Shown here: positions 3,922 through 24,833 of the stretch, one piece after another
How the letters are laid out: each line of letters opens with the position of its first letter
How positions within the stretch are numbered: position 1 is the stretch's first letter
Virus record (IMG/VR): IMGVR_UViG_3300028025_002687
Span: 1-30,079 of that record
DNA from: a virus
Direction: 5' to 3' (one strand)
Length of the DNA: 30,079 bases
Made by a program: the position numbers and the translations under genes
The notes under the pieces: generated by a model
Databases searched by the model: none
What the model was told of the DNA's origin: nothing
Seen by the model: the letters and a program-made list of their open reading frames with translations, nothing else

Positions 3922-3933
3922 AGATATGAAATT

Positions 3934-4016
3934 AGAAGGATGGGGAATTAAAAAATAAATACCAAATAAAATAATAAAATGTAGAATACCAACGGGTGTT
4001 AGTGTCCCATCCTTCT
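3934..4016 (-). repeat. 11-bp inverted repeat enclosing an A/T-rich loop
   Basis: AGAAGGATGGG (3934-3944) and its exact reverse complement (4006-4016) are 61 nt apart in the transcribed 3' region after the last structural ORF. No gene lies between. It may shield the 3' end of the structural transcript or bring the terminator into a compact structure. Confidence 0.6.
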
Positions 4017-4022
4017 GTTATA

Positions 4023-4139: not shown

Positions 4140-4140
4140 G

Positions 4141-4782: not shown

Positions 4783-4784
4783 GG

Positions 4785-5954: not shown

Positions 5955-5960
5955 TTACTG

Positions 5961-5987
5961 TAAGTATAAATTTAAGAGAAACTGACA
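5961..5987 (-). promoter_or_regulatory. Late-promoter-like element TTGTCA-N14-TATACTTA before portal
   Basis: On the minus strand TGTCA (5987-5983), a 14-nt spacer and TATACTTA (5968-5961) precede the portal ATG by six bases. The same arrangement recurs upstream of three other genes, with a weaker fifth case. The predicted transcript would start at or near the ATG. Confidence 0.6.
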
Positions 5988-5999
5988 ATGTATTGTTTA

Positions 6000-7535
6000 T
6001 TAGTAAAGATTTCTTCCTAAAGCAGTTTGGAATGTGTTAATCTGTGCATCAATATCTTCAGCTTGAGCTTGAGTTAGATAATTTCCAGTAAAGAAACTTT
6101 GTAATCTTCCTGTAAAAGGATTATATGGAGACCCATTCAAATTTAGAGTAAACAAAAAATATGGAACGTTTACTAATTCTGAAATTCCCCCTGCAGTTGC
6201 TTGTGTAGATGCAACTCCATTTCTATAAAAATCTTTTATGTTAGATGATCCAAATGTTGCAATCCAAGATCCCTCGGGAGTTGATGCAAATCCATTACTT
6301 TGATTGCCATTTGCATATCCATATAATACCACATAACCACCTGCATAATAATGATTGTTAACAGTAACTTGTCCAGTGTCAGTTGTTGCTGCACCAAATG
6401 AATAAATTTCATTTTCCATATTTCCAGCAGTTTGATAAATTCCCCAAGAAGTGTCTGTTGGAGAAGATTGAACAGTAGGATTGTAGTTTGTGTCTCCGTA
6501 GCCAGAACCTGTGTTTGTTACTCCCTGATCATTGAATGTAAAATCTCCAGTATTATACCAATCTATGTCAAAAGCACTTTTTGTTCTTATTGCATTTAGT
6601 CCCGACGCAGCAGCATTTCCTCCCAAAAATAAATATAAAACGTTTAGTTCTGAATATAAACTTGATGCTTTTAGTCCGACGAATAAAGTGTTTACTGCAT
6701 CTTCTTCTGTTGAAGTTAAAGAACCTCCCGCTGCAATGACAGCATCAATATATGCCTGTGCATCAGGATCGTATGAAGGAATAGCATATTTAGTTTGCAC
6801 ATAATTCCACAAGTTACTTAGATCAGTTCCAGAAAGAACAGATCCTCTTGTAATAATCATTTCTGCAATAGAGCCAGTAAAATTATATCCAGGACTGTTA
6901 AAAGCGTCATAAGCTCCAATATTAAACCAAGGATTAGCATTTGGTGAATAAGAACCTGCAACGCCTGAAGAAGATCCGTTAAAATAAGTGTAAGCATCTG
7001 TAGAAGTAATCCCAACACCAGCAAGAATAGTTGTATTGAGAGTTGTTCCTGATATCTTGTTTAGATAACCACCTGCCAGAGCTCCTGTAAAGGGTTGAAC
7101 TCCGTCATCTGCTATATTAATAGACCAAGCTCCTCCTCCGATGTTTGCGTCCGAACCTCCCCCTGCTGATGCAAAACTTTGTGATGCAGTTTTTCTTGCA
7201 ATTACAAAACAGTATAGAGGAAGGCTATCAGAGTAAACAAAATCTGTATTGTTTACTAAATAAACTGGTGTGGCCCCCTCATTAGTAAAATCTAAAGTCG
7301 GTAAATTGTTGAAATCTGAATTGGAAGCTGTAAAAGTTGGTTGATTTGCAGAAGGTCCTTGTGTTACAGATTTAGAAGTTAAACTATCTCCCCAAGCAGA
7401 AACATTTGAACCTGAAAGAGTTACTCCGGTATCTGATTTGAACCAGTTTTCTATGCCAGGTAAATCTGCCGGTGTCCAAGATCCTCCCGTTGCTCCTGAA
7501 AAGTTTCCGAAAAAAAATAGATTTTGTGCGAACAT
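6000..7535 (-). CDS. LamG-like tail fibre/receptor-binding protein, 511 aa, two modules
   Basis: The N-terminal half (about 1-255) has the layout of a concanavalin/LamG-type sheet domain found in phage fibres: WTPADLPGIENWFKSDTGV, SAWGD, a PTLDFTN strand, and FTGSIAEMIITRG near its end. The second half (256-511) is a different module that recurs twice in the protein encoded at 7795-9390: SYDPDAQAYIDAVIAAGG, then NTLFVGLKASSLY, then LYLFLGGNAA. The hydrophobic start MFAQNLFFFG is short and is probably not a signal peptide, since the product is a virion component. A host-surface-binding role is inferred from fold and position among fibre genes. Confidence 0.7.
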   Translation of the reverse strand: MFAQNLFFFGNFSGATGGSWTPADLPGIENWFKSDTGVTLSGSNVSAWGDSLTSKSVTQGPSANQPTFTASNSDFNNLPTLDFTNEGATPVYLVNNTDFVYSDSLPLYCFVIARKTASQSFASAGGGSDANIGGGAWSINIADDGVQPFTGALAGGYLNKISGTTLNTTILAGVGITSTDAYTYFNGSSSGVAGSYSPNANPWFNIGAYDAFNSPGYNFTGSIAEMIITRGSVLSGTDLSNLWNYVQTKYAIPSYDPDAQAYIDAVIAAGGSLTSTEEDAVNTLFVGLKASSLYSELNVLYLFLGGNAAASGLNAIRTKSAFDIDWYNTGDFTFNDQGVTNTGSGYGDTNYNPTVQSSPTDTSWGIYQTAGNMENEIYSFGAATTDTGQVTVNNHYYAGGYVVLYGYANGNQSNGFASTPEGSWIATFGSSNIKDFYRNGVASTQATAGGISELVNVPYFLFTLNLNGSPYNPFTGRLQSFFTGNYLTQAQAEDIDAQINTFQTALGRNLY

Positions 7536-7549
7536 ATTAATAGTTTTAA

Positions 7550-7789
7550 TTATGCTCCTGTTGGCCCCGGAGGAAGTGGATCTGGTTCTGGTTTATATGG
7601 AATAAGAGGTAAATCTTTTACCCAAAGAAATTCTGGATTTACACAGAATTCTTGTTCTTGTGTGGAAATAATCCAGTTTCCGTCCGCATCCTGAATGGGA
7701 TTAAAATAGGAATCTGGACCATATTGCTGTCCAACTAATTGGTCTTTTTGTGCTTCTGTTAATAGAGCCACTAATTCGTTTGTTTGCAT
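7550..7789 (-). CDS. Small protein between fibre genes, 79 aa
   Basis: This small acidic protein begins MQTNELVALLTEAQKDQLVG, has a central YFNPIQDADGNWIISTQEQE segment, and ends in a proline-rich tail (KPEPDPLPPGPTGA). No catalytic motif or membrane segment is visible. It lies between two fibre-like genes with tight spacing on both sides, which fits a fibre chaperone or small virion protein. That role is inferred from context only. The C-terminal PPGPTGA could pack against the collagen-like fibre, but this is speculative. Confidence 0.7.
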   Translation of the reverse strand: MQTNELVALLTEAQKDQLVGQQYGPDSYFNPIQDADGNWIISTQEQEFCVNPEFLWVKDLPLIPYKPEPDPLPPGPTGA

Positions 7790-7794
7790 AATTA

Positions 7795-9390
7795 TTATAC
7801 TTGTCTTGATAAAGCTGTTTCATATGCTTGAACCACTGTGTAGAGGTTCGCAGCATCTGTGTCGGAAAGTCCAGTTCCAATAGAAGCCCAAGCCAGATTT
7901 CTATCCGAGAATTGCTGTGCTGTTCCATTGTTATTTAATGCAGAAATATAAGCTTTTGCTGTAGATCTTCCACCTGAAGCAACAAGTGGGGTTTTTGCCA
8001 GAGTTCCATTTCTGAAAATTTTGAATTCTGTAGATACTGTTCTGGAAGACAAAAAGAGACCCGCAGCAGTTCCAAATAAACCAACAGTAAGATCGTCGGA
8101 AGAGTTTACCGCAGAAGTAAATTCATTTGCTGCAGATCTAAGGTCCAGAGTTAACTGATTGCTTCCTGTTGAAAGTGTTCCTAAATCTTTACAGTTTCTG
8201 CCACCGCTTGTTCTGGAATAAACTGAAATGTGTTGGTCATTTTGAGAACCACTGGTAGACGGAGTATAAAAAGTATCTGCATAACCATTAGTTCCGTTTG
8301 GAGTTATTCCATTAGAATTTTGCGTAAATCCTCCGTTGAATGTAATTCTAAAAGATGCATCTGCATCGAAAGGAGATTTCAGATTGAACTTATGAGTTGT
8401 AGCTGAACCTCCAACAAATGGGTAAGCTGCCTGCATTTTAGACCAAAGAGAATAATACTTTAGACCTGCTGTTAAATTCTGAACTGCAGAAGCTTGAGTA
8501 GAATCTGTAATTTGAGCAGCCATCAAGAAATTCTGTGCATCTAAATCCTGAACTGCTGGAACTGCCACTATATTTCTGCCTTGCAAGAATTGGTATCTCT
8601 GCACAATAGAAGTAAGGGTTAAAACTTGTGCATCTGTAAGTCCCTTTCCTATAGAAGCAAATGCCACCTGTCTATTCGAATAAGATCCACCAGCACCTTT
8701 GGCGATCTGAATTGCAGTAGAACCAGAAAGAGTATAAGAGTTAGCAGCGGTATTTGTTGATCCTATCTGTAAACCGTTTTTATACAGTTTATGTGAAGTG
8801 GAAGAAGTTCTTGTGCCAATATAGAAACCTTGTGAGTCTGTGTTAGATGTAAAGACTTGTCCATCTATTTGTCCTGGCTGTGCAGGATCTGAATACTGTC
8901 TTGAAAAAGCAAAGTTTCCTGTAGATCTTATTTGTAAGTTATATTCTATAACAGGAGAAGAGGGATTGGTTGCGTTACCTATTTCGACGGGATAACCACT
9001 GGGGGTAGATTGTGTTCTGCTATAATAAGAAAGATGTGTATCGTTTGTAGTTGCATCTGCATAAGTATAACCCGTAGTAGCATAAGCATTGCTTCCATTA
9101 GGAAGAGCTCCTGAAGATGTGTGGGTCCAACCTCCAAAAAAAGTCAACTGATACTGACTTGGATTTTTTAGATTGTAAGAATTTGGTGTAGCAGTATCCC
9201 CTATGAATGGGTAGATTGCATCCATCTTATCCCAAAGTCCGTTCAACTTTAGATCTGTTACCAGATTATTAATTGCATAGTAATCTCCTGTTGTAGCAAG
9301 AGTTCCAACTGCGCCAATAAATGCTATGGTAGCAGGATCAAATTGGGCATCTTGAATACCCGCAAGCGCTATTCCTAATTTCGATGGCAT
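7795..9390 (-). CDS. Fibre protein built from two copies of a LamG-like module, 531 aa
   Basis: Residues about 14-274 and 282-531 are two copies of one module. Each has a helical lead (FIGAVGTLATTGDYYAINNL; FLMAAQITDSTQASAVQNL), an LW-KM-YPF-GG segment, NLK-P, then F-GG-T and a G-PNG-GYA-T motif, ending in SIG-GL-D. A third copy is the C-terminal half of the 511-aa protein downstream. The rest is beta-rich, Ser/Thr/Asn-rich and compatible with a receptor-binding jelly-roll. Stop and start signals are tightly packed on both sides (TAATATG after the collagen-like gene). Confidence 0.7.
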   Translation of the reverse strand: MPSKLGIALAGIQDAQFDPATIAFIGAVGTLATTGDYYAINNLVTDLKLNGLWDKMDAIYPFIGDTATPNSYNLKNPSQYQLTFFGGWTHTSSGALPNGSNAYATTGYTYADATTNDTHLSYYSRTQSTPSGYPVEIGNATNPSSPVIEYNLQIRSTGNFAFSRQYSDPAQPGQIDGQVFTSNTDSQGFYIGTRTSSTSHKLYKNGLQIGSTNTAANSYTLSGSTAIQIAKGAGGSYSNRQVAFASIGKGLTDAQVLTLTSIVQRYQFLQGRNIVAVPAVQDLDAQNFLMAAQITDSTQASAVQNLTAGLKYYSLWSKMQAAYPFVGGSATTHKFNLKSPFDADASFRITFNGGFTQNSNGITPNGTNGYADTFYTPSTSGSQNDQHISVYSRTSGGRNCKDLGTLSTGSNQLTLDLRSAANEFTSAVNSSDDLTVGLFGTAAGLFLSSRTVSTEFKIFRNGTLAKTPLVASGGRSTAKAYISALNNNGTAQQFSDRNLAWASIGTGLSDTDAANLYTVVQAYETALSRQV

Positions 9391-9391
9391 A

Positions 9392-11476
9392 TTATACTGT
9401 TAAGTTACCGAAGACATCCCATTCGTCCGTGTCTATTTTGATAAGAGAAGCTGCGGCATATTGGCCGTTTATTTTCAAAGCACCTCCAAGAGATCTAAGA
9501 GTTACTCCAACAGTTGCAACGATTGTAGTTGCTCCCGCTCCATATTGGGTAACCATTACCTGAGAACCTATAGGGAATGCCTGAGAAGAGTTTAGTGGAA
9601 CAGTTAGATTGTTTGCTGATCCAACGTTCATTTCAACTAATTTATCCTGGTCGGAAGTTACCAAAGAATAAGAGGCAGTTTGTCTGTTGGTTGTAATTAA
9701 AGTATTAGCGGAAGAACCACTTGTTCCCGAAGTTCCCGAACTTCCACTTATCCCAGAACTTCCACTTGTGCCCGAAGTTCCATCTGTTCCAGAAGAACCA
9801 CTTGTGCCCGAAGTGCCTGAGCTTCCACTTGTTCCCGAAGTTCCATCTGTTCCCGAAGAACCACTTGTGCCCGAAGTTCCATCTGTTCCCGAAGAACCAC
9901 TTGTGCCCGAAGTTCCATCTGTTCCAGAAGAACCACTTGTTCCCGAAGTTCCCGAAGATCCACTTGTTCCCGAAGTGCCGTTTGTTGGGGTAGTTACCCC
10001 GTAGTAGTTTGTTCCATCATAAAGAAATGAAACAAAGTCGGAATTACCAACAGTAGTTTGTAAAACCGGTGCAGATCCACCCGTCCAAATAACCGAACCT
10101 GGCCAAGTTACTGTATAAGAACCTGATCCTCCTTGAACCACTTTTGTTGTGTAAACTCCTCCTGCAACCCCATTAGAAAATGTAAGTGTAGTTGATCCTG
10201 TTAGGGTAAACTGTTGAACGTTAGAATTGTTCCAGTCAACTGTCCCAGTTCCTGTAAAGTTACCAGCGTTGTAAAATCTGGAAACTCCCTGACCTGTGAT
10301 CCCTAAGACAAAACCATCAAAAGTTAAATTTGCTTGAGCTATTGCTCCAGTTCCTCCTGCATTAGAAGTTAAAATTCTTGTTGCTCCGCCAGAAGTAATA
10401 TCAACAGAATTACCTGACGTTCCCGAAGTTCCATCTGTTCCCGAAGAACCACTTGTGCCCGAAGTTCCATCTGTTCCCGAAGAACCACTTGTGCCCGAAG
10501 TTCCATCTGTTCCCGAAGAACCACTTGTGCCCGAAGTTCCATCTGTTCCCGAAGAACCACTTGTGCCCGAAGATCCACTTACTCCACTTGTTCCTGAACT
10601 CCCCGAAGTTCCACTTGTGCCTGACGGAGTTGATACCAGGATGAATAGGACCTGATCGTTGTTGCTGAACGAATGTGTGGAAGTTACCAAAGTAACTGGA
10701 AGAGTCCAGTAGGTGGTGTTGTCCACTGGAGTTCCTATTGTCCAAGTTTGATAGTTTGCTTGATTTGCTTTATCTTGGATGGTAATAGTTGTCCCTGAAT
10801 TCAGATTTGCAAAGAAGATATCAACGTTGTTCCCTCCACCATCTTCATCGCTAATGTTTATCTGTGTAGCAGATGCTTGAGTTACATTGTTCCAAATAAT
10901 AAAACCAGCTCCAGGATCACCTGATTGAGAGTTAGTCTTAGCCTCATAGTTGAAGAATGAGTTAGAAAATCCTGGCTCACCTTGTGGTCCTGTTGCCCCA
11001 TTTATGCCAGAAGTTCCTGAGCTTCCACTTGTGCCCGAAGATCCATTTACTCCACTTGTTCCTGAAGAACCACTTGTTCCTGAAGAACCACTTGTGCCTG
11101 ATGAACCCGAAGTTCCATCTGTTCCTGAACTTCCGCTTGTGCCAGAAGATCCATTTGCTCCAGAAGAACCCGAAGTGCCTGAGCTTCCACTTGTTCCAGA
11201 AGAACCCGAAGTGCCGGAAATTCCACTTGTTCCAGAAGAACCCGAAGTGCCTGAACTTCCACTTGTTCCAGAAGAACCCGAAGTTCCTGAACCTCCAGTT
11301 CCTGAACCTCCTTGACCATAGACAATAACGTTGCCTGTAGCTCCGATGCTCGCCAGTTGTCCGTCATTATTGACGAATACATTTAGATAATTTGCTGATG
11401 CTGGATTTGGGGTAGTTCCTGAATATGAAATTTCTATCTGTCCACCCGTTGCTCCAAGTCTTAATCTTCCTGCCAT
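9392..11476 (-). CDS. Collagen-like tail fibre protein, 694 aa
   Basis: A short N-terminal head (MAGRLRLGATGGQIEISYSG, through about 56) precedes three Gly-X-Y blocks at about 57-169, 285-356 and 500-589, built from GTS, GSS and GTD triplets. The blocks are separated by two globular beta-rich domains. A C-terminal domain (590-694) contains a MVTQYGAGATTI strand and ends in DEWDVFGNLTV, like many phage fibre tips. Gly-X-Y repeats form trimeric collagen-like shafts, so a trimeric fibre is the natural reading. The first block ends in ATGPQGEPG, a more classical collagen sequence. It lies in the fibre cluster. Repeats make block length prone to variation and misassembly. Confidence 0.85.
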   Translation of the reverse strand: MAGRLRLGATGGQIEISYSGTTPNPASANYLNVFVNNDGQLASIGATGNVIVYGQGGSGTGGSGTSGSSGTSGSSGTSGSSGTSGISGTSGSSGTSGSSGTSGSSGANGSSGTSGSSGTDGTSGSSGTSGSSGTSGSSGTSGVNGSSGTSGSSGTSGINGATGPQGEPGFSNSFFNYEAKTNSQSGDPGAGFIIWNNVTQASATQINISDEDGGGNNVDIFFANLNSGTTITIQDKANQANYQTWTIGTPVDNTTYWTLPVTLVTSTHSFSNNDQVLFILVSTPSGTSGTSGSSGTSGVSGSSGTSGSSGTDGTSGTSGSSGTDGTSGTSGSSGTDGTSGTSGSSGTDGTSGTSGNSVDITSGGATRILTSNAGGTGAIAQANLTFDGFVLGITGQGVSRFYNAGNFTGTGTVDWNNSNVQQFTLTGSTTLTFSNGVAGGVYTTKVVQGGSGSYTVTWPGSVIWTGGSAPVLQTTVGNSDFVSFLYDGTNYYGVTTPTNGTSGTSGSSGTSGTSGSSGTDGTSGTSGSSGTDGTSGTSGSSGTDGTSGTSGSSGTSGTSGSSGTDGTSGTSGSSGISGSSGTSGTSGSSANTLITTNRQTASYSLVTSDQDKLVEMNVGSANNLTVPLNSSQAFPIGSQVMVTQYGAGATTIVATVGVTLRSLGGALKINGQYAAASLIKIDTDEWDVFGNLTV
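9710..9979 (-). repeat. Collagen-coding tandem repeat, block 3
   Basis: Short tandem repeats in 9-bp (one Gly-X-Y triplet) steps, partly organised in 36-bp units, encode residues 500-589 of the fibre protein. Confidence 0.85.
10409..10624 (-). repeat. Collagen-coding tandem repeat, block 2 (36-bp unit)
   Basis: About four consecutive near-identical 36-bp units (10427-10570) encode GTDGTSGTSGSS. Near-identity at the DNA level, including synonymous positions, points to recent expansion. Confidence 0.85.
10970..11308 (-). repeat. Collagen-coding tandem repeat, block 1
   Basis: Degenerate 9-bp and 18-bp repeats encode Gly-X-Y residues 57-169. This block is more diverged than blocks 2 and 3, as if older. 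Confidence 0.8.
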
Positions 11477-11486
11477 TTTTGTATTT

Positions 11487-12050
11487 TTATGCTGCGTTTA
11501 TATAAAGTTCCCCTGTTTCTGTAATGTAAAGTAGGCCGTCTCCTGCCACAAATAGTGGATCACAAGATGATTCTTCATAATTAGAAACTATATAGGGTGA
11601 ATTGTATGAGTTGATGATGCATCCAACGAAATCTCCAGAATAGTAAACAACAGATAAAGCATCTTCGTTGTCTGAAACGTAATCCACAAAAACAATCTCC
11701 GGTGGAGTGTATTCTTCCAGATACATTTGCCCCTGGTCGATTAGATCTCCAGTAGAAGGATCCAACGAAGGAGAAGTCATGTTCCAAAGTTTATATGTCC
11801 AGTTGCCTGGAGCAAATAACCATACCGAACCTCCTTCAACGTCGTCGATGTCTGCAGAAGTTACCGTAATGGTAAATTGGATAAATCTGGTGTTTCTAAC
11901 AGTATAGGTTGGGATAACGTAAGCCCACTGTTTAGAGTAAGTGTTCTGGAATCCAAATAGAAAATAATCTCCATAACTCACATCTGAGTTAGTGATTGTA
12001 TCTGCGTAGATTACAACTGTATTTACTTGTCCTGGTGTTAGATTTAGCAT
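11487..12050 (-). CDS. Probable virion protein, 187 aa
   Basis: This beta-rich protein begins MLNLTPGQVNTVVIYADTIT, continues with a YFLFGFQNTYSKQWAYVIP strand pair and an FIQFTITVT strand, and ends with short LYITETGELYINA repeats. The final repeats resemble the tip elements of fibre or adaptor proteins. No family name can be given with certainty. It lies between the probable tail tube and the collagen-like fibre, so a small virion or fibre-attachment protein is the best inference. A TGTCA-N14-TATACTTA element lies eight bases before the ATG, marking the likely promoter for the fibre genes. Confidence 0.65.
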   Translation of the reverse strand: MLNLTPGQVNTVVIYADTITNSDVSYGDYFLFGFQNTYSKQWAYVIPTYTVRNTRFIQFTITVTSADIDDVEGGSVWLFAPGNWTYKLWNMTSPSLDPSTGDLIDQGQMYLEEYTPPEIVFVDYVSDNEDALSVVYYSGDFVGCIINSYNSPYIVSNYEESSCDPLFVAGDGLLYITETGELYINAA

Positions 12051-12058
12051 CTTACCTC

Positions 12059-12085
12059 TAAGTATAGAATTAATCTAAACTGACA
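12059..12085 (-). promoter_or_regulatory. Late-promoter-like element TGTCA-N14-TATACTTA before fibre module
   Basis: TGTCA (12085-12081), a 14-nt spacer and TATACTTA (12066-12059) lie eight bases before the ATG of the 187-aa gene. The nine-base string TGTCAGTTT is shared with the portal copy at identical spacing. Confidence 0.65.
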
Positions 12086-12095
12086 TAATATCCAC

Positions 12096-12132
12096 AATAA
12101 ACCCCGGGAAATATCAAAAACCCGGGGTTATT
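12096..12132 (-). terminator. GC-rich hairpin after the tail-tube-like gene
   Basis: The stem AACCCCGGG/CCCGGGGTT has A/T-rich flanks that extend the pairing and a 12-nt loop. The T-tail on the minus strand is weak (TTTATT), so it may be a terminator or a transcript-stabilising 3' hairpin. A promoter-like element follows directly. Confidence 0.7.
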
Positions 12133-12155
12133 TAGGAAAATAGATGCGCTTAGGA

Positions 12156-12689
12156 TTAAGCGTCGACGAATGATGTTCCGGTTAGGGAAGCAAGGGTGTT
12201 TACCTGGTAAGCCATTGCTGGTTCCATCGCCTGTAGGACGAAAGAATACTGAGTAGCATCTCCAGGAGCTGTGCCGGTTGTGGTGGTTCCTGTTGAGATT
12301 ACGCAACCTCTGGTAAGACCAACCATCCAGTATAGACCGTTGTTATCTTCAAATACAACGCGAGACGCTCTGTTGTAAGCAAGCAACTGAATTTGTGCTC
12401 TCTTAGCAGAGGAAAGGTGTTGAACTGGGATAGTAACTTCCTGAGTGAAGAATGCTGTTCCGTTGGTGTTAGAGATGTTGAAAGTCTCTGTGAAAGACGC
12501 AACATCTTTTGCCACCTGCACCTGGTAGAATGTTCCAGTTGCTCCGGTCAATGCTGTGATACCTGCAGTAGCACCTGCAGTAACAGTAGCATATTCAAAG
12601 TCAGAAGATACCCAAAGTGTTTTAATACCCCCGATAGCATCTAAACAGTCTAAAGCGATTGCTGCTGATAAATTACATGATGTAGACAT
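12156..12689 (-). CDS. Probable major tail (tube) protein, 177 aa
   Basis: The protein begins MSTSCNLSAAIALDCLDAIG and continues GGIKTLWVS. Its C-terminal half has VVFEDNNGLYWMVGLTRGC, then a TGTTTTGTAPGDATQYSF segment and MEPAMAYQV, a pattern typical of tail tube proteins, where a glycine/threonine hairpin with GD-x-x-x-Y precedes a late ME-PA strand. Size, beta-rich composition and position next to the capsid gene fit. It is flanked by hairpins on both sides, as expected for a highly expressed gene. The alternative is a minor head or decoration protein; no search was possible. Confidence 0.6.
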   Translation of the reverse strand: MSTSCNLSAAIALDCLDAIGGIKTLWVSSDFEYATVTAGATAGITALTGATGTFYQVQVAKDVASFTETFNISNTNGTAFFTQEVTIPVQHLSSAKRAQIQLLAYNRASRVVFEDNNGLYWMVGLTRGCVISTGTTTTGTAPGDATQYSFVLQAMEPAMAYQVNTLASLTGTSFVDA

Positions 12690-12716
12690 AGTTTGTTTTA
12701 GATTTTTTTATTTAGT

Positions 12717-12742
12717 AAAGGGGAGTTTTTAGGCTCCCCTTT
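12717..12742 (-). terminator. Hairpin after the capsid gene
   Basis: The perfect 9-bp stem AAAGGGGAG/CTCCCCTTT has an 8-nt loop and starts eight bases after the capsid stop codon. No T-run follows on the minus strand, so partial termination or mRNA protection is more likely than full termination. Confidence 0.7.
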
Positions 12743-12749
12743 GGGGTTG

Positions 12750-13694
12750 TTAGATAGTAGAAACGAACTGCGATGGGTAAACCGAGGTCCCGAGACGGAA
12801 TTTTGACATGAAGTTTACAACGTCCTGAGATGGGTCGTAGTAGAACTTGAAGTTGTCAGCATCGTCAAGAAGACCAGTTCCGAAGTAGATATACTTCTTA
12901 GGCCCAAGGATGATGTGTGTATCAACGTTGATACCAGGAGCTGCAAATACAGTTACGTTAGTTCCAGGGAACACGAAAGTAGATGGAGCGTCGCCAGTTA
13001 CGTTGTTGATGTTAGGGTATTGGGTAATCAAAGAGTTACCTTCTGCCATGATAGCTTGAACAAGGATCTGGTAGTTGTTATATGACATATAAGCAACAAG
13101 ATCGTTCTCCTGCTTAAGAGCATTTGAAAGTTTGTTCACGATACCGAACATAGATGCGAATGCGGTGTTAACTGCGAAAGGAACTGTAATTCCTGCGCCG
13201 GTTCCAGAAAGACATCCGTTAGCAACAGTTGCTTGAGCAAGTAGACCATCAAGAGATGCTCCATCACCCTGCCAGATAGTGTTTTCAACGTATTGGCCGA
13301 TGTTAGCGATTTTGTTGTTAGCGATTTGCTCTTCGAAAGGAACGGTTGTAGCGTAAGCTGATGGGCTAAGCTGAGAAGACAACCAGTAGTTTCTTAGATC
13401 TTCTGGGCAAAGTTGCTCCTTAAGCATCTTAGATTGAACAACCAAGTCGATTTGGCTGAATACTGTAGAGTTACCTGTTGCACCACCTGGTCCAACGGTT
13501 GAAGCGTTAAATCCACACGTTGCATCTATGATGTATGCGTTAGAGTTAAGCAAGTTGATTGCAGAAGTTCCTGCAGTCTTACCAGCCATGATGGTAAGCA
13601 TTTGAACTGAGTATGGCTTCAAAAGAGCTTTTGATACCAGGTCAGTAGATAATTGGTCGGTGTAAGCTTGTAAGCTTCCTAATGAAAATGACAT
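12750..13694 (-). CDS. Major capsid protein, HK97-like, 314 aa
   Basis: The protein has the composition and motifs of an HK97-fold capsid protein. CPEDLRNYWLSSQLSPSAYA is followed by FEEQIANNKIANIGQYVENT and a TIWQGD segment, typical of the E-loop to spine-helix region. A later helix has DLVAYMSYNNYQILVQAI and the C-terminus reads DNFKFYYDPSQDVVNFMSKF. Its place directly after a scaffold-like gene and the XkdF protease supports the call. At 314 residues it has no obvious long delta domain, which matches a separate scaffold gene upstream. Leader A/T-rich without Shine-Dalgarno; hairpin follows. Confidence 0.88.
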   Translation of the reverse strand: MSFSLGSLQAYTDQLSTDLVSKALLKPYSVQMLTIMAGKTAGTSAINLLNSNAYIIDATCGFNASTVGPGGATGNSTVFSQIDLVVQSKMLKEQLCPEDLRNYWLSSQLSPSAYATTVPFEEQIANNKIANIGQYVENTIWQGDGASLDGLLAQATVANGCLSGTGAGITVPFAVNTAFASMFGIVNKLSNALKQENDLVAYMSYNNYQILVQAIMAEGNSLITQYPNINNVTGDAPSTFVFPGTNVTVFAAPGINVDTHIILGPKKYIYFGTGLLDDADNFKFYYDPSQDVVNFMSKFRLGTSVYPSQFVSTI

Positions 13695-13712
13695 AGTGTT
13701 ATTTGTTTATTT

Positions 13713-14330
13713 TTAGAATTTTCTTGTTTTAGTAAACTCTTCTCTTAGGGTCTTTAGTCCTTCAAGGCGAGCTTCCATTGGGTCTGTTGAAGCTGGTGCT
13801 TCGTTATTGAAAGTGCTGATCTTAGTTGCTCCTGGAGTTTTTGACATTTTCTCCATTTTGGATTTGTAAGAAGCCATTTCTTCTTTTACGATTCCAACCT
13901 CTTTAGCAACTTCTTCGATAGCCATCATCACCTTTTCCATCATGTTGTCCACATAGGACGCCATTTCTTCTTTGGTGATTGTTGCTTCCGACTTAGTTGG
14001 TTGTTCGGCTGTCTCTTCTCCTGCTGGAATTTCGGATTTTTCTTCGGCTGCTTTGATTTCAACTTCGATTTCCTCTTCTTCTTTTGGAGATTCCACTTGC
14101 GTGATCACCCCTTCTGCATCGACGTAGACGGTGGTGCCATCTTCTAATTCATGGATACCTTCGGGTGCTGGTGCTTTTTCTTCTCCTGAAACAACATAAA
14201 TTTTGCTGCCTGGTTCCAAAGCTTCAGTCATTACCTTAGTAACTCCATCTTTCAAAGTGGCTTCAACCATTCTTACTTCCATGCCAAGAGCGATCTTGAT
14301 TTGGTTTAGTTTTTCTTGATAAAAGTTCAT
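13713..14330 (-). CDS. Probable scaffolding protein, 205 aa
   Basis: An N-terminal small-strand region (GMEVRMVEATLKDGVTK, then GSKIYVVSGEE and LEDGTTVYVDAEGVIT) is followed by an extremely acidic linker (EEEEIEVEIKAAEEK) and a C-terminal helical, Lys/Glu/Met-rich segment likely to form a coiled coil (VDNMMEKVMMAIEEVAKEVG). The acidic, helical composition and position between protease and capsid genes are classic for a capsid scaffold removed after assembly. A 33-nt leader follows the TATACTTA element, and an 18-bp perfect palindrome lies beside that element, so this gene probably opens the capsid transcript. Confidence 0.7.
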   Translation of the reverse strand: MNFYQEKLNQIKIALGMEVRMVEATLKDGVTKVMTEALEPGSKIYVVSGEEKAPAPEGIHELEDGTTVYVDAEGVITQVESPKEEEEIEVEIKAAEEKSEIPAGEETAEQPTKSEATITKEEMASYVDNMMEKVMMAIEEVAKEVGIVKEEMASYKSKMEKMSKTPGATKISTFNNEAPASTDPMEARLEGLKTLREEFTKTRKF

Positions 14331-14363
14331 AGATTGTAAATTTTTATTTTGGGTTTACCTGAG

Positions 14364-14390
14364 TAAGTATAGACTAAATGTCATATGACA
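14364..14390 (-). promoter_or_regulatory. Late-promoter-like element before scaffold/capsid genes
   Basis: TGTCA (14390-14386), a 14-nt spacer and TATACTTA (14371-14364), with the same spacing as the portal and fibre copies. Here TGTCA is the left part of a perfect palindrome. The next start codon is 33 nt downstream. Confidence 0.65.
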
Positions 14391-14393
14391 TTT
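14376..14393. promoter_or_regulatory. 18-bp perfect palindrome AAATGTCATATGACATTT; operator candidate
   Basis: The sequence equals its own reverse complement over 18 bp. It covers the TGTCA element of the promoter preceding the scaffold and capsid genes. A dimeric regulator site is the natural reading, though no regulator is identified. Confidence 0.6.
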
Positions 14394-14395
14394 CT

Positions 14396-16150
14396 TCAGA
14401 TAGATTTTAAGATTTTTATTACCCTCTCGTAGAGAGCCTTGTCTTTTTGGTATGCTTCGTAGTCTTTCTTGTCCATGAAGTCTCCCTCGATCGAGAAGCC
14501 TTTTAGTTCGCCAGCCTTGATTTTCTTCCAAGTTTCTGGATCTTGAACTCTCATCTTAACCATCCATGTGCCCACTGGAACGTCCATATTGTAGAGAGAG
14601 TTTGCTTTGTCCTCTTCGTTTTCCACGATCCAAGTTTCCATGACATAAGTTCCAGCATCGTCTTTTGCTTCGTGCTGAATGTTGGTGTCGTGATTTCTGG
14701 TTTCACGCATAAACTTTTCTGCCACCTTCTGGATCACCTCTTTGGAAAACTTAACGTAGTATGGAAGTTTAGTCTTTTCGTCTTTGCGAAGAATTTCCAA
14801 GTCGGGAATCATTGCCGGTCCAACGACGATCTGCTGGTCTTCCGAAGCAAAGTAGTAACCCATCTTCTGCTCGGAGTGTTTAGGATGTCCTTTAGGCAGT
14901 AGATCGTTGTCCTGATTGTAGTCTTTGTCGTAGCCCGATCTGTTGCCAGCCAGAATGTTTAGGAAAGAATTAACTCTTGCCATTGCCCACTGTGATCTCT
15001 GCATGCCTCTCTTGCCAGGAGTTCCGACTGAATAAGCACCAGCTCCTCTTCTCCATACTGCTTTCAACATTCCAAGAGTTGCTTTCTGGGACTCCTGTGG
15101 ATTCTTCTTGTTGTGCTCCTCAATCTTATCCTTTAGGGTGTTCTCCACTTCTTGAGAAACTTCGATCCCTCCTCTTGTTGTTTTGGTGTCTCCCGGTTCG
15201 TTCTTTGCTGAACCTGTTCTGCCTCTTTCTTCTTTAGGTATTCTTGCCAGAGGTCTATCTCCTGCAGCAAATGCTTCTGTCTGCAGTTCTGGGTGGTAGC
15301 CGAGATAAACCAACTTACCAGATTTGGTGATGGTTTCTCCGTCGACTCTTATTTCTGCAGGTTCTATGTTATCGGGTGTGTCGAACCAATACTCGACATT
15401 ATAGCCACCTTCGGGCATAAGTTCAACTATTAAACCTCTGTCGTAGTCTTCGTCTTCTGCTTGTAGAACAACTTTCTGCCCTCGGGGAAGTGGAATTCCC
15501 TGCAGTGCAAATTGGTCTTTCTTCTTTGGAATTTCGTCCACATAGGGAGGAAGAGTTCCTGTGTCGTAGGACATTTCCTCTTTGCGAATGGACTTTAGTT
15601 TTCTTTCTGCCCATTCTATCCCAGCGTCTCCGCCCCAGGCATCCCACATTAGCTTGCCGCAACCTTCACCATAGGGTGTATCTGAATTTTGTCTATGTCT
15701 TTGGAATGCCGACATGCGAGCAATGGTGTCTTCTGAAATGGGTTCACGATTTGCCAGTTGGTTTGCTCTTGCTTTGCCAGGTCCCATACCGCAGTCTCCC
15801 CAACCATTCTCTTCCGCCCAAGCAAGTGCACGCTTAGCTGCGTTGACTGCTGCCTCGGGATAGTCGGTGTAGGTCTCTGCAAATTCTTCTGCACTTTGTT
15901 TTTCTCTGTAGGTGCTGTAGCAGATTGCTGCAGCCTGATCTGTTTCATAACCTTCGTCTCCAACAAGCTTTGCTATGCAACGGGGGATGAATTCGTCTTC
16001 TGATTCTCCTGCTCCAGGTTCAACGAACTCTTCTCTTTTGAAAGCCATCCAAAGCTTTTCGATTGCAGGAATATCGACCAGTGAAATTGCAGAAACACCA
16101 GATGTATCGACGTCTTCTATAATTTCAAGTTCTATTACTTTTTTTTCCAT
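14396..16150 (-). CDS. XkdF-type prohead protease with a large internal insertion, 584 aa
   Basis: Residues 1-38 (DVDTSGVSAISLVDIPAIEK) and about 430-560 (YYFASEDQQIVVGPAMIPD through GFSIEGDFMD) match the XkdF family of phage head maturation proteases. Candidate residues are H487 or H493 and S553 in GFSIEG. Between them lie about 390 residues with other modules. The first (50-85) has FIPRCIAKL and AAAICYSTYREK. The second (99-190) has GPGKARANQLANREPIS, then ISEDTIARMSAF and a WGGDAG segment. The third (about 330-425) has TLGMLKAVWRRGAGAYSVG and SQWAMARVNSFL. The protease should mature the capsid and scaffold encoded next. The inserted modules are seen in other phage proteins but have no assigned role here. 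Confidence 0.8.
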   Translation of the reverse strand: MEKKVIELEIIEDVDTSGVSAISLVDIPAIEKLWMAFKREEFVEPGAGESEDEFIPRCIAKLVGDEGYETDQAAAICYSTYREKQSAEEFAETYTDYPEAAVNAAKRALAWAEENGWGDCGMGPGKARANQLANREPISEDTIARMSAFQRHRQNSDTPYGEGCGKLMWDAWGGDAGIEWAERKLKSIRKEEMSYDTGTLPPYVDEIPKKKDQFALQGIPLPRGQKVVLQAEDEDYDRGLIVELMPEGGYNVEYWFDTPDNIEPAEIRVDGETITKSGKLVYLGYHPELQTEAFAAGDRPLARIPKEERGRTGSAKNEPGDTKTTRGGIEVSQEVENTLKDKIEEHNKKNPQESQKATLGMLKAVWRRGAGAYSVGTPGKRGMQRSQWAMARVNSFLNILAGNRSGYDKDYNQDNDLLPKGHPKHSEQKMGYYFASEDQQIVVGPAMIPDLEILRKDEKTKLPYYVKFSKEVIQKVAEKFMRETRNHDTNIQHEAKDDAGTYVMETWIVENEEDKANSLYNMDVPVGTWMVKMRVQDPETWKKIKAGELKGFSIEGDFMDKKDYEAYQKDKALYERVIKILKSI

Positions 16151-16157
16151 ATAAGTG

Positions 16158-16184
16158 TAAGTATATTTTGTTTACAATCTGGCA
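16158..16184 (-). promoter_or_regulatory. Late-promoter-like element TTGCCA-N14-TATACTTA before protease
   Basis: TTGCCA, a 14-nt spacer and TATACTTA (16165-16158) precede the protease ATG by seven bases. The upstream half overlaps the end of the tape measure gene and differs from TGTCA at one base. Confidence 0.5.
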
Positions 16185-18409
16185 AGAGCATTTAGTCTTG
16201 CGTTTGCTTCTTGCTGAGAAGTCATGTCGGTCGCAACCACATAGGTCTTGACGATTGGCATCTGAGCCATCGGAACATCTGCTGCTCTGGTGTTGCCCAG
16301 AGAATTGATTGCTTCAAGAAGGGGCATGAAGTTTGCTGTTGCTCTGCGGTTGACAACAAATTCACCTCCCTCAAGTTCTCCCATTGTGGTTCTGATACCC
16401 CCCAGGTCATGAGAAGGTCCACCAAGTAATCCACCTTCTGCGTAGGTAGACGGTGTTGATTTAGCACTGTCGGAAGATGTAGAAGAACCTGCTGTAGAAA
16501 CATATTGAGTTTGTTGGATTGCAGCCAACTGGATTGCTGTAGTTGCTGCAGAAAGAGCCAAGAATAGACCAGCAAGTGGAGGTCCACCGATTGCCATTCC
16601 TTTTTCGAATGCAGAAATACCTGCAGAAATACCTGAGATGACTGCTCCTGCATATTGGTAAGCTTTGTTCTTCTCAAAGTATTCTTTTCTGATCTTTTCT
16701 TCTTCTTCCTTGTTGCCTTTTGCTTCCGCAAGTTCTTTAGACATTCTGGCAGAAGATAATTGCTGAAGTCCGGTATTGAGGGAAGCAGCAGTTTGAAGGG
16801 CGAAGTCGACTGCTTCTCTCCTGTTTTCTTTTTCTTCCTCCGAATCTTTTTCTCTAATTTCTCTCTTCTTTCTGGCAATCTCGAGTTCTATGTTGACTGT
16901 GTCTTCACCAGCCTTCTCTGCTGCCTTTAACTGATCCTGAAGACGATTTAGTTCATTTTGTTCTTGAGCATCCTGTAATTCATTTTTGGACAGATTAGAA
17001 TCCAAGAGAGAAACTTCTTCATACTTGTAGTGGTCGTCGATGATGTTCTTGGTTCTCTCATACTTCTTCTGTTCTCTCTGCACCAGAATTTCAGCATACT
17101 CTTGAGCCTGTCTCTTGAGATCTTCGTTCTTCTTTTTCTGAATGTCAAATTCCAGCTTTGCAGTTTCTGCAGTTTGTCTTAGAATAACAACGTCAAGTTC
17201 TGCATTCAAGGCTTTCTTTTCTTTTACCTCTTCTGCAGTCAAGGCTCTCTTTTCTTTGGAAGCCTTTTCTTCGATGGCAACGGACTTTAAGATCAGTTCT
17301 CCCCTTTCGTTTAGCTGGTCGAACTCCAGCTTCAATCTGTTTCTATCGTCTTCAGAAAGCTTGGTGTCAAGCAGAGCAATCTGCTGATAAGTCTTGGTTT
17401 GTCTATCGTAGGATTCCTGAGTTAATCTCTTAGCAGTTTCGTTTGCTTCTTTTAGAATTCTTGTTCTTTCGTCCGACTTCTTTTTGAAATCATCAGTGAT
17501 TGCTTTCTGAGCGTTGATTGCATCGACTTTATTCTGTGTGTTTAGATTGTCGATGGTTGCATCGTTCTTTCTGGCAACTTCTCTGTAAGAATCTCCAGCT
17601 TTTTTGTAGGCTTCGTCGGTTTCTTTTAGTCCTTTGACTGTTGCCTTGAAGTTTGCATAAGCATCTGAACTTTCTTGTTTTAGCAGTGCGATGATTTTTT
17701 CTCTGCCTGCAATCTCAATGTTCGCAAGTTCTTGAGCAGATGCTCCTCTTGCCTGGGCTTGGGCAATGGAGATCTTAGTTGCATTTTCATAATCTCTGGT
17801 GTATTCTCCAACCAAGAAGTTTGTGTATTCCAGTTGGCCGTTATACTTTCTCTGAGCAGCATCGAGTTCTTCTGTAGATTTAGTTGCTCCACCTATTGCT
17901 GCACTGATGTCGTCCCAATAAGCTATAATGCTTCCAAGTGCAACCACCAGAAGACCAATCCCTGTAGAACCGATTGCAGCCTTAATGGAGTTGAATGCGT
18001 TGACAGCAACGCCCTTCAACTGGGTGAATGCTCGACCTAAGTCTTCGAGTTGTGCAAGTCCTTGAGATAGAGCAAGAGCAGATTGAACTCTGACCAGTGT
18101 TTTCTGTAGATCCTTAGATTCTGCACCAACAAGTCCCATTGCTCCCTGGATTGCTGCAAAACCTCCCGCAACACCCGAGATTGCCTTACCAACTGCTTGG
18201 AATTGTCCTGCTCCTGTAAATGCACTGACTGCGTCTCTCGCATCGTCTATTTGATCTTTCAGTTCTGCCGCCCTTAGTGCTGCACTCTGAACTTGCTGAG
18301 AAGTGGAACCAAATTGCTGGGTCAGCATCTGGACTTCTTGATTTGCCTCCCTTAGTTGGGCACGAAGGTTGGTAAACCCAGAGACTTCTAAAACTATTTC
18401 TTCTGCCAT
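16172..18409 (-). CDS. Tail tape measure protein, 745 aa
   Basis: The N-terminus is a long amphipathic helix region (NLRAQLREANQEVQMLTQQF). A hydrophobic segment follows near 150-165 (GIGLLVVALGSIIAYW), then about 400 residues of Lys/Glu-rich coiled coil. A second hydrophobic region (about 590-635) precedes a C-terminal GGLLGGPSHDLGGI and GELEGGEFVVNRRATANF segment, typical of tape measure proteins. It sets tail length: at the usual ~0.15 nm per residue, 745 residues suggest a tail near 110 nm, hence a siphovirus. It is encoded after the tail-tip genes rather than before them, which is unusual. Confidence 0.88.
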   Translation of the reverse strand: MAEEIVLEVSGFTNLRAQLREANQEVQMLTQQFGSTSQQVQSAALRAAELKDQIDDARDAVSAFTGAGQFQAVGKAISGVAGGFAAIQGAMGLVGAESKDLQKTLVRVQSALALSQGLAQLEDLGRAFTQLKGVAVNAFNSIKAAIGSTGIGLLVVALGSIIAYWDDISAAIGGATKSTEELDAAQRKYNGQLEYTNFLVGEYTRDYENATKISIAQAQARGASAQELANIEIAGREKIIALLKQESSDAYANFKATVKGLKETDEAYKKAGDSYREVARKNDATIDNLNTQNKVDAINAQKAITDDFKKKSDERTRILKEANETAKRLTQESYDRQTKTYQQIALLDTKLSEDDRNRLKLEFDQLNERGELILKSVAIEEKASKEKRALTAEEVKEKKALNAELDVVILRQTAETAKLEFDIQKKKNEDLKRQAQEYAEILVQREQKKYERTKNIIDDHYKYEEVSLLDSNLSKNELQDAQEQNELNRLQDQLKAAEKAGEDTVNIELEIARKKREIREKDSEEEKENRREAVDFALQTAASLNTGLQQLSSARMSKELAEAKGNKEEEEKIRKEYFEKNKAYQYAGAVISGISAGISAFEKGMAIGGPPLAGLFLALSAATTAIQLAAIQQTQYVSTAGSSTSSDSAKSTPSTYAEGGLLGGPSHDLGGIRTTMGELEGGEFVVNRRATANFMPLLEAINSLGNTRAADVPMAQMPIVKTYVVATDMTSQQEANARLNALARL

Positions 18410-18412
18410 TTG

Positions 18413-21202: not shown

Positions 21203-21203
21203 A

Positions 21204-23144: not shown

Positions 23145-23952
23145 TATCTTACTTGGTGTTTAGTTTGTTTCTGTATTTCAAGATTCTGTCTCCGAGTTTC
23201 GTCTTTTTTCCAACTAAGCCAGTTGAGCGCTTCTCTAATAGGGAGTTTTGCTGATTCACTAAATCTAAGAGGGTCTCCTCCAGAAAGGAGATTGAGGGTG
23301 TTCCACCATTCTCTTGCTGCAGAGAAAGTGCTTTTCTGATTTGGTCTTTTAGGGATGTCTCCACCGTCTTCATCAGAGGACTTTGCAGCAAAGATTCCGC
23401 TGTATTCCTTAGTGATGAGTTGGCGGACTGCAAAAAAAAAGCATTGGCTGATCTAACAGCAGAAATTGGAAGGTCCATAAATAGCTCCGCTCTCTGACGG
23501 AACCCTTTGGAATCGTAGTCTTCCAGAGTTAGCACTCCGTTGACGTCCTCCAAGACTGGTCGGTATAGAACTGCTGCAACTTCGTTTAGTTTGTTCTTTG
23601 CTCCCGGAGAAGACAGAATAACTTCCAAGTCGGCAAATTCACCCACTGTTAAATCTTCGATTGCAGGTAGACCATACTTTACATCTCTGAATTCCATTGT
23701 TGGCTTGATTGCATCGGTCTTGCCCGAAAGCTCGTTGATGAGCAGGATGGTCTCTTCCCAGATGATTAGCCAATCTTGGTATCTTAGTTTGGTCAACTGT
23801 TCTTTTGGACACCCAGTTAAACACTGGACTATCTCGAACTCTGAACCTTCTTTCTGCTCGACCAGGATTTCCTGGAGTTCATAGTAGTTTCGAAGGGTGA
23901 TATCTTCGAAAGTGTAGGTTTGGTCTTTTATTTTGAAACTTGGTTTGTTCAT
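23144..23952 (-). CDS. Probable -1 frameshift fusion of the tail assembly chaperone, 269 aa
   Basis: Shared residues 1-173 continue, after a -1 slip on T9 (23440-23432), into a 96-residue alternative C-terminus: FAVRQLITKEYSGIFAAKSS, later REWWNTLNLLSGGDPLRF and LPIREALNWLSWKKDE. The alternative frame is closed by TAG 13 nt before the reference codon at the tract and then stays open for 97 codons. It ends in TAATG with the next gene's start. U-UUU-UUU is an efficient -1 slippery heptamer in the correct phase. Tail assembly chaperones (lambda G/GT) are classically expressed by such shifts. The WW-LNLLSGGDP and ALNWLSWKK stretches look like a genuine folded domain. Confidence 0.65.
23149..23952 (-). 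CDS. Tail assembly chaperone-like protein, zero-frame product, 267 aa
   Basis: The gene lies between gp10-like and tail-tip genes. The N-terminal half reads FKIKDQTYTFEDITLRNYYE, then TVGEFADLEVIL and NEVAAVLYRPVL, a pattern found in chaperone-like proteins of Bacteroidota siphophages. Zero-frame reading passes through the T9 tract (residues 171-174, AFFL) and continues 94 residues to a helical, basic end (LGDRILKYRNKLNTK). ATGA couples it to the preceding gene. Because the two frames after T9 are both open and near equal in length, either could be the main product. A homopolymer indel in the assembly is the other explanation. Confidence 0.7.
   Translation of the reverse strand: MNKPSFKIKDQTYTFEDITLRNYYELQEILVEQKEGSEFEIVQCLTGCPKEQLTKLRYQDWLIIWEETILLINELSGKTDAIKPTMEFRDVKYGLPAIEDLTVGEFADLEVILSSPGAKNKLNEVAAVLYRPVLEDVNGVLTLEDYDSKGFRQRAELFMDLPISAVRSANAFFLQSANSSLRNTAESLLQSPLMKTVETSLKDQIRKALSLQQENGGTPSISFLEETLLDLVNQQNSLLEKRSTGLVGKKTKLGDRILKYRNKLNTK
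23432..23440 (-). other. T9 slippery tract (-1 frameshift site candidate)
   Basis: On the minus strand codons GCT TTT TTT TTG contain the U-UUU-UUU heptamer in phase. The -1 frame opens immediately upstream and ends at the next gene's start codon. Confidence 0.6.
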
Positions 23953-24320
23953 TTCTTTGTTCTAAATTCCTTCTTAATCTGCTTAGCAACTTCGCGAGCC
24001 AGAATTTGGTTCACGACCTGCTTTGTTTTTTCTTGGGTGTTCAGCCAGAAGCGGGGTTTTATTCCCATCTTGCCCTTGCCTGGACTTGGGTTCCAAGGTC
24101 TTCCTGTTGTGTCTTTGACTTTATATCGGCCGGTTCCTTCGTTGAGATAGGTTCCATACTTCAAGAAAGTCGGAATGAAAATTATTCCATCTGGGGTTTC
24201 CACTGCACGAACTTTAACAGATTTCTGAAGAGCCCCAGTTTTCACAGGAGCCTGATATCTCAAGGCAGCCTGGATAACTCTCTCCATCAGTTTCATTGCA
24301 GGTTTTAGATCTATAGCCAT
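23949..24320 (-). CDS. HK97 gp10-like minor tail/head-tail joining protein, 123 aa
   Basis: The ATG at 24320 (MAIDLKPAMKLMERVIQAAL) overlaps the upstream stop as TAATG and is chosen over a start at 24389. The motif APVKTGALQKSV, a YGTYLNEGTGRY segment and a helical basic C-terminus match the HK97 gp10 family of head-tail joining proteins. These small proteins typically follow the portal/connector genes or sit before the tail terminator; here the gene follows the terminator-like gene. ATGA overlap with the chaperone gene indicates coupling. Confidence 0.75.
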   Translation of the reverse strand: MAIDLKPAMKLMERVIQAALRYQAPVKTGALQKSVKVRAVETPDGIIFIPTFLKYGTYLNEGTGRYKVKDTTGRPWNPSPGKGKMGIKPRFWLNTQEKTKQVVNQILAREVAKQIKKEFRTKK

Positions 24321-24799
24321 TATGCTGGGAAGGCTGCTGAGCAAAGATCGAATGGAGACTGGATCTCCACAGAAATTTCTGCTGACCAACCTGTTAAGTT
24401 GTTGTTAAATCTCTCCACAAAAGGTGTGAGGTAGATTGGGGTTTCTATCTTTGCCCCGACTGTCAACCAGTCCGTCATGATAAACTTGGAGAAGATATCT
24501 TGAGCAATCATGAATGTGTTGTTGTGGGTGTCGATGGCCAACTGTTCGTCGTTGTCCTTGGCGATGTCCATCACAATAAAAGAAAACCCAAATAAGACTT
24601 TTCCGAAACGATCCATTGAAGACTGGGCTGGAATCATGAACACCAGAGGGAAACGCACGAACTTATGTTCGACGTTCTGGTTGTCTATGTCGGAGAGCTG
24701 CCCGACCTGGAATTGTCGGACTGCTAACTGCGAAGTGCAGATGCTGCGGAAAAGGTCTATCAGTTCCTTGTATGTTGCGATTGGTGCTGGAGTTGCCAT
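24320..24799 (-). CDS. Tail terminator-like protein, 159 aa
   Basis: This alpha/beta protein has ATYKELIDLFRSICTSQLAV at the N-terminus, strands around FVRFPLVFMIPAQ and GKVLFGFSFIVMDI, a central DNDEQLAIDTHNNTFMIAQD region, and a C-terminal TGWSAEISVEIQSPFDLC end. It resembles the tail terminator-type proteins that Bacteroidota siphophages place before gp10-like or chaperone genes. The call rests on size, pattern and position; another adaptor role is possible. TAATG overlap couples it to the gp10-like gene, and a weak late-type element lies seven bases upstream. Confidence 0.6.
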   Translation of the reverse strand: MATPAPIATYKELIDLFRSICTSQLAVRQFQVGQLSDIDNQNVEHKFVRFPLVFMIPAQSSMDRFGKVLFGFSFIVMDIAKDNDEQLAIDTHNNTFMIAQDIFSKFIMTDWLTVGAKIETPIYLTPFVERFNNNLTGWSAEISVEIQSPFDLCSAAFPA

Positions 24800-24806
24800 A
24801 TAAGTA

Positions 24807-24833
24807 TAAGTATGATTTAGTCTATTTCTGCCG
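24807..24833 (-). promoter_or_regulatory. Weak late-type element before the tail module
   Basis: CATACTTA (24814-24807) with CGGCA 14 nt upstream sits seven bases before the ATG at 24799. A second overlapping TATACTTA (24808-24801) lacks an upstream partner. This copy is degenerate and overlaps the end of the terminase gene. Confidence 0.35.

Follow-up and report, generated by a model that had tools for sequence, protein, structure and literature searches.

A two-part element before virion genes of an uncultivated phage clade: a predicted late promoter for a phage-encoded ECF-type sigma factor

How might an uncultivated phage switch on the genes for its virion? The question is raised by IMG/VR virus record IMGVR_UViG_3300028025_002687, whose complete stretch of 30,079 bases is called the window here, and in which a two-part DNA element recurs just ahead of virion genes. 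The element consists of TGTCA and, exactly 14 nucleotides further on, an octamer. We consider that its consensus form, TGTCAGTTT-N10-YATACTTA (14 nucleotides from TGTCA to the octamer), probably acts as the late promoter of a phage clade and is read by a sigma factor that the phage itself encodes, and we place the probability of this reading at roughly 0.77. It is supported by the conserved geometry and position of the element, by the presence of the sigma gene, and by the analogous gp47 system of phage 7-11. The label 'late' is applied here on the basis of gene function, not timing.

A bipartite element at fixed spacing

A first-pass annotation of the window had located the element at five sites, and all five are present on the minus (coding) strand (P1 to P5, Table 1). 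Exact matches to TGTCA-N14-TATACTTA occur three times in the window, all on the coding strand, versus 0.00 expected from 100 dinucleotide shuffles, and five matches carry at most one mismatch versus 0.01 expected, which bears out the three exact sites and the TGCCA variant P4. The fifth match at this threshold lies at 28592 and is distinct from the fifth site of the annotation, P5 (24807-24833), which has three mismatches. At that tolerance 12 matches are found and 9.4 are expected, so P5 is within chance in the window alone; its standing comes from relatives, where the element in relaxed form precedes 11 of 18 orthologues of the same gene, g24320, and the octamer precedes 17 of 18. The upstream halves of P4 and P5 fall within the 3' ends of the tape-measure gene and terL, respectively. 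From P1 to P5 the octamer stands 6, 8, 33, 7 and 7 nucleotides before the ATG, in agreement with the interval of 6 to 8 nucleotides noted earlier for four sites; the gap of 33 belongs to the gene in scaffold position.

The spacing between the two halves is rigid. When sites were chosen by the octamer alone (NATA[CT]TTA no more than 41 nucleotides before an open reading frame; 102 sites in 32 records), TG[TC]CA occurred 51 times in the 32 nucleotides upstream, and 50 of these occurrences were at exactly N14, the other being one of those sites counted again through an overlapping octamer. A scan of IMG/VR with altered spacers placed 37 of 86 sites within 45 nucleotides of a downstream reading frame at N14, 4 of 80 at N13 and 9 of 64 at N15, and contigs with two or more matches numbered eight, one and none; these figures cover 80 of 82 matching stretches for N14, 80 of at least 120 for N13, and all 64 for N15. 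Raw totals (82 stretches versus at least 120 and 64) do not favour the true spacing, and therefore the signal lies in position and clustering, not in the number of matches.

A consensus built from 34 distinct sites consists of TGTCAGTTT and YATACTTA, with T-rich sequence leading up to the octamer. Its TGTCA and octamer columns are constrained by the way sites were selected; in columns free of selection, the sixth base is G in 30 of the 34 sites, the seventh T in 26 and the eighth T in 29. The base preceding TGTCA is A in 15 sites, T in 13 and G in 6, so the TTG of a -33 element is not conserved. The motif is not palindromic.

The first-pass annotation had also judged the spacing to be unlike that of sigma70 or Bacteroidota promoters, and neither promoter type was found at the sites tested. 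A sigma70 scan (TTGACA-N16-18-TATAAT) over positions 3500-17000 found 22 matches where 23.9 were expected, and the four elements that lie in this interval are not among them. Promoters of the Bacteroidota primary sigma factor have the form TTG/TAnnTTTG with a spacing of N17-23, and this pattern matched six times in the window and at none of the five sites. The contrast drawn from spacing is weaker than it appeared: the figure of 14 stands out chiefly owing to the length of the downstream block, eight nucleotides, and measured start to start the distance is 22. A rigid N14 fits a sigma factor of the extracytoplasmic function (ECF) type, because ECF sigma factors require rigid spacing, according to the part of the source consulted (PMC6411747).

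A search with TerL produced 48 related loci, twelve of them at 66-99% identity, and a motif search in related phages, proposed with the first-pass annotation, found the element at the same gene starts. In a set of 32 IMG/VR records to which the window belongs, the element in relaxed form ([TC]G[TCG]CA-N14-[ACT]ATA[CT]TTA) stands at 72 of the 85 starts of the five orthologous genes; for 30 other genes of the window, none of 322 starts has it. These counts, like those of octamer-selected sites above, include near-duplicate records (for example G006/G027/c95, G009/c89 and G025/c63) and so are not of independent events. The element is kept upstream of orthologous genes while spacer, flanks and neighbouring genes vary. 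In G001, for instance, the portal is 99% identical, yet the DNA ahead of the predicted promoter differs, as does a portion of its spacer. The g11487 orthologue lacks the element in G001 and in contig c79, where the predicted promoter precedes a different gene of about 102 codons. In each matching record all matches lie on one strand, that of the genes. Within 366 kb from 15 records, again including the window, only six matches at 12 or 13 of 13 positions are not followed by an ATG-started reading frame: two precede GTG-started frames, three are inside the sigma gene, and one is in an inverted repeat of the window.

A probable ECF-type sigma factor encoded by the phage

The product of a gene that the first-pass annotation had called sigma-like is probably, by profile and predicted fold, an ECF-type (group 4) sigma factor. 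TIGR02937 (sigma70-ECF) matches nine of nine family members, with a best value of 2.1e-8, the window protein itself scoring 20.4, below the curated cut-off of 42.9; Pfam region 4 is matched in seven of the nine. An AlphaFold2 model (predicted local distance difference test score 84) has two helical domains joined by a flexible linker, with helices at residues 3-79, a low-confidence segment at 84-96 and helices at 98-158, a layout of sigma2 and sigma4 without a sigma3 domain. The top PDB matches by Foldseek and VIA are ECF sigma factors and sigmaE region 4 bound to -35 DNA. The model aligns end to end with sigmaE (1or7) at Z 10.3 and a root-mean-square deviation of 13.1 over both domains, and its sigma4 part alone aligns with 2h27 at Z 9.9 and a deviation of 2.5. 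Matches to viral structures have values down to 3.9e-7, and annotated phage sigma factors are among them.

The sigma gene and the motif occur together. All 14 relatives longer than 10 kb whose sigma protein is at least 46% identical (G001, G004, G005, G006, G009, G012 and G021-G028) hold a match with at most one mismatch; the sole match in G022 falls within the sigma gene. None of five records of 4-8 kb that have a sigma protein or fragment at 42-82% identity (G002, G007, G029, G030 and G031) has the motif; they are short and without most of the promoter-bearing genes. A one-mismatch match is present in one of 23 records with distant sigma homologues (G010 and G032-G053), some recognised through short local matches only. 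Octamers before ATGs in the records with distant homologues share no common upstream block, except in G010. There, with a sigma protein 24% identical, two sites (L013 11306 and 17961) have the form ATAGAAAA...[CA]ATA[CT]TTA-N5-ATG and the same geometry. This ATAGAAAA pair is perhaps a co-diverged promoter, although two sites are too few to claim it. A de novo dyad search in single distant genomes was set aside, since shuffles matched even the window's own motif count and the method had no power.

In three relatives a perfect TGTCA-N14-YATACTTA lies inside the sigma gene (L330 10207, L331 3054 and L333 10195), where it overlaps the codons of an S-V-T-S-P-F-Y-H-T-Y motif. With the amino acids fixed, each such match has a probability of about 1%, and every other perfect match in the 366 kb precedes a gene; the window's copy (27474-27500) is degenerate, at 11 of 13 positions. 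The three sequences are related (about 70% identical DNA) and the observation was made post hoc, both of which weaken the case for an internal promoter. It is a possible but doubtful extension that one phage ECF sigma factor drives the whole virion regulon near-leaderless and that, in some lineages, its gene holds an internal promoter that would feed the terminase genes downstream of it late.

Candidate mechanism and alternative explanations

Where transcription would begin is suggested by a larger set of 60 distinct sites in 37 loci, 55 of which precede an ATG-started reading frame. In all 55 (42 with short and 13 with long predicted leaders) the sixth position past the octamer holds a purine, and a pyrimidine comes just before it in 42. 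This pyrimidine-purine pair is likely the transcription start, relative to which the octamer would occupy -13 to -6 and TGTCAG -32 to -27. With the ATG no more than nine nucleotides after the octamer in 42 of the 55 sites, transcripts likely start 0-3 nucleotides before most ATGs, and the mRNAs would be near-leaderless. In the g13713 class the octamer lies 22-36 nucleotides from the ATG and the predicted leaders are about 17-31 nucleotides. The earlier proposal of leaderless or near-leaderless late mRNAs is retained, as a prediction from sequence, for four of the five sites. Such leaders are not unheard of, because phage transcripts are often leaderless according to the authors of a study of phage AR9, in the part consulted (PMC5312081).

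In the mechanism that we propose, host RNA polymerase core loaded with the phage ECF-type sigma factor would bind the element, with sigma4 reading TGTCAG and sigma2 reading YATACTTA, and would start at the purine six nucleotides past the octamer. Once made, the sigma factor would switch on five units, namely neck/tail, protease, scaffold/capsid, fibre and portal. Four of these would have leaders of about 0-3 nucleotides, so that translation would start on near-leaderless mRNA. Orientation, fixed spacing with a free spacer, placement at module heads, terminator-like hairpins just upstream of one class of site, the pyrimidine-purine signature and conservation in the clade all fit promoter function.

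Several observations weigh against recognition of the element by this sigma factor. Common ancestry of sigma gene and motif would explain their co-occurrence equally well, which is thus not proof of recognition. Two genes whose products the phage likewise requires late, TerS and TerL, are not directly preceded by the element in the 32 records (0 of 16 and 0 of 20 starts). Sites before g24320 are mostly weak CGGCA variants, and the upstream half is unrecognisable in 7 of 18 orthologues. Pfam region 2 is found in only one of the nine family members, a HMMER search of PDB sequences gave chance-like matches only and no sigma factor, and the structural model has a predicted template modelling score of 0.49, with a best Foldseek PDB E-value for the whole two-domain model of 1.3e-3 and none reaching 1e-3. 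The weak whole-model values probably arise from the free orientation of the two domains.

At the middle promoters of phage T4, the activator MotA binds upstream of the box. By analogy, the host primary sigma factor might read the octamer as a poor -10/-7 box while a phage activator binds TGTCAGTTT at about -30. The placement of the octamer at -13 to -6 is compatible with this arrangement, in that the Flavobacterium sigmaA box TAnnTTTG lies at -12 to -5 and shares A, T and T with it (PMC9723704, consulted in part), and the phage encodes other small proteins with weak helix-turn-helix matches that might supply an activator. However, nearly all sites depart from TAnnTTTG at fixed octamer positions (C and the final A), the TTG expected at -33 is absent as a conserved feature, and the phage encodes a protein that has both sigma domains and accompanies the motif. 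We consider reading by the host factor unlikely.

Much the same sites could instead mark an operator or another DNA signal, such as one for replication or for recombination at module borders, and modules are swapped at these borders; the inverted repeat at 28501-28644 also carries TGTCAC repeats. A non-palindromic motif that always shares the orientation of the genes and keeps a fixed distance to a purine near the ATG makes such a role very improbable. The closeness of that ATG, at most nine nucleotides after the octamer in 42 of 55 sites, would equally suit a translation signal acting in the mRNA leader, but the g13713 class keeps the element 22-36 nucleotides before the ATG in 17 of 17 orthologues carrying it, and a remote half held at an invariant distance is hard to explain in an RNA signal. 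An Rfam search gave no match, and we rate an RNA-level signal as slightly less probable still. An origin by chance, or through selection of look-alike AT-rich words, is hardly credible given the exact and one-mismatch counts, the spacing controls and the orthologue counts, even though the count at three or fewer mismatches does not exceed that of shuffles.

Genomic setting and relation to known promoters

Nearly all assigned genes of the phage are on the minus strand: the sigma-like gene, TerS/TerL, neck, tail, protease, capsid, fibres and portal. The sigma gene shares one run with the terminase genes. Labels for TerS, capsid and fibre derive partly from position. Of the modules that the first-pass annotation had named behind the sites, portal (4e-39), protease (3.6e-15), the head of the fibre module and neck/tail stand, and the scaffold name is a guess from position.

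Table 1. Predicted promoters, the genes behind them and associated features of the window
Feature	Position	Strand	Basis and remarks
P1, predicted late promoter (TGTCAGTTT...TATACTTA) before portal gene	5961..5987	(-)	exact match; predicted start 5955, 1-nt leader; 15/17 portal orthologues
P2, predicted late promoter before g11487	12059..12085	(-)	exact match; predicted start 12053, 3-nt leader; 18/20 orthologues
P3, predicted late promoter before g13713 and probable capsid gene	14364..14390	(-)	exact match; predicted start 14358, ~28-nt leader; 17/17 orthologues
P4, TGCCA variant, predicted, before protease gene	16158..16184	(-)	1 mismatch; predicted start 16152, 2-nt leader; 11/13 orthologues (relaxed motif)
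P5, weak CGGCA variant, predicted, before g24320	24807..24833	(-)	3 mismatches; predicted start 24801, 2-nt leader
ECF-type sigma factor, 159 aa, TTG start, candidate promoter reader	27227..27706	(-)	TIGR02937, region 4, fold
Portal gene	4785..5954	(-)	first gene behind P1; phrog_33693, 4.2e-39
g11487, 187 aa, function unassigned, heads fibre module	11487..12050	(-)	gene behind P2
g13713, 205 aa, scaffold position (scaffold a guess from position), before probable capsid gene	13713..14330	(-)	behind P3
Head-maturation-protease protein gene	14396..16150	(-)	behind P4; phrog_3017, 3.6e-15
g24320, 159 aa, upstream of neck/tail-completion gene	24320..24799	(-)	behind P5
GC-rich hairpin, 12-nt loop, directly upstream of P2	12100..12129	(-)	sequence; like hairpins in the same place in relatives

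The hairpin upstream of P2 is a probable terminator of the capsid operon; it fell outside a simple terminator scan in which the loop limit was 8. The portal gene has an unusual place in the order, after the fibre genes and far from the terminase and capsid genes, and a fibre-like gene (9392-11476) contains a long run of short collagen-like repeats. A large imperfect inverted repeat (28499-28652) with TGTCAC repeats separates the DUF3987 gene from its neighbour, and the match at 28592 within it agrees at 12 of 13 positions. A second recurrent element, AAGACCGTATATT, precedes genes of the presumed early region in the window (about 1693, 2423 and 2728, minus strand) and also in G001, G012 and G025, at one to three copies per genome, and differs from the late element. 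The right end (29937-30079) repeats the left end (1-125) and then enters a reversed copy of about 477-499; by these end repeats the genome is circular or terminally redundant, with a chimeric assembly end.

Searches with the capsid or sigma protein found no relative among 50,697 phage records, and the capsid protein found none among genome contigs, so no host can be named. The sigma profile gave one weak match of 38 residues among genome contigs, in a Bacteroidales metagenome-assembled genome, with no motif in the 20 kb examined there. Distant TerL and portal matches to Nonlabens, Flavobacterium and Bacteroides phages only suggest a Bacteroidota host, and the same searches also matched phages of other phyla.

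Late promoters of phage T4, which are served by gp55 and gp33, consist of an 8-bp downstream element, TATAAATA, with no upstream element, and rely on the sliding clamp and a co-activator. The element described here likewise places an 8-bp downstream block before virion genes and would depend on a phage-specified sigma factor; the T4 system differs in lacking the upstream half and in its need for clamp and co-activator. In phage phiEco32, the phage-encoded sigma factor gp36 switches on middle and late genes, much as proposed here, but its promoter, tAATGTAtA, is a single element with no -35 part, a property tied to the lack of region 4 homology (PMC8948821, in the part consulted), whereas the present element has two parts.

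The closest parallel is Salmonella phage 7-11, whose sigma factor SaPh711_gp47 acts at late promoters of the form GTAAtg-(16)-aCTA, as proven biochemically (PMC8948821). In both phages a small sigma factor would be paired with a bipartite promoter before virion genes. Transcription in 7-11 starts 6-9 nucleotides from the downstream element, and the distance of 22 nucleotides from the start of TGTCAG to that of ACTTA equals the one in GTAAtg-(16)-aCTA (PMC8948821). Two features of the 7-11 type are found here: a two-part element whose spacing is fixed and which stands ahead of virion genes alone, and a phage sigma factor in the same genome. The element sequences differ, 7-11 is a phiEco32-like phage of Salmonella, and near-leaderless starts are absent from the part of the account consulted. 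Measured from the predicted start, the octamer nearly coincides with the box of Flavobacterium sigmaA promoters, but two of its positions differ and TGTCAG is added.

Phage-encoded sigma factors with bipartite late promoters are known already. Searches of open-licence PubMed Central papers on phage sigma factors or late promoters in Bacteroidetes or Flavobacterium phages, on ECF-like and crAss-like phage sigma factors, and on leaderless late phage genes returned no title or abstract that describes the motif. Within that literature, three things appear to be new: the pairing of these two sequences, the clade that carries it, and a regulon with near-leaderless mRNA predicted at four of its five promoters. 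An uncultivated clade would thereby gain a late switch built from one short sigma factor, five promoters and a defined consensus, and, with sigma proteins 41-99% identical, the clade would show cleanly how a sigma factor and its promoters evolve together. If the starts are near-leaderless as predicted, these genes would form a natural regulon in which to study how translation initiates when an mRNA has no leader. The host may belong to the Bacteroidota, in which few mRNAs are leaderless (5.5% in F. psychrophilum, according to the part of PMC9723704 consulted).

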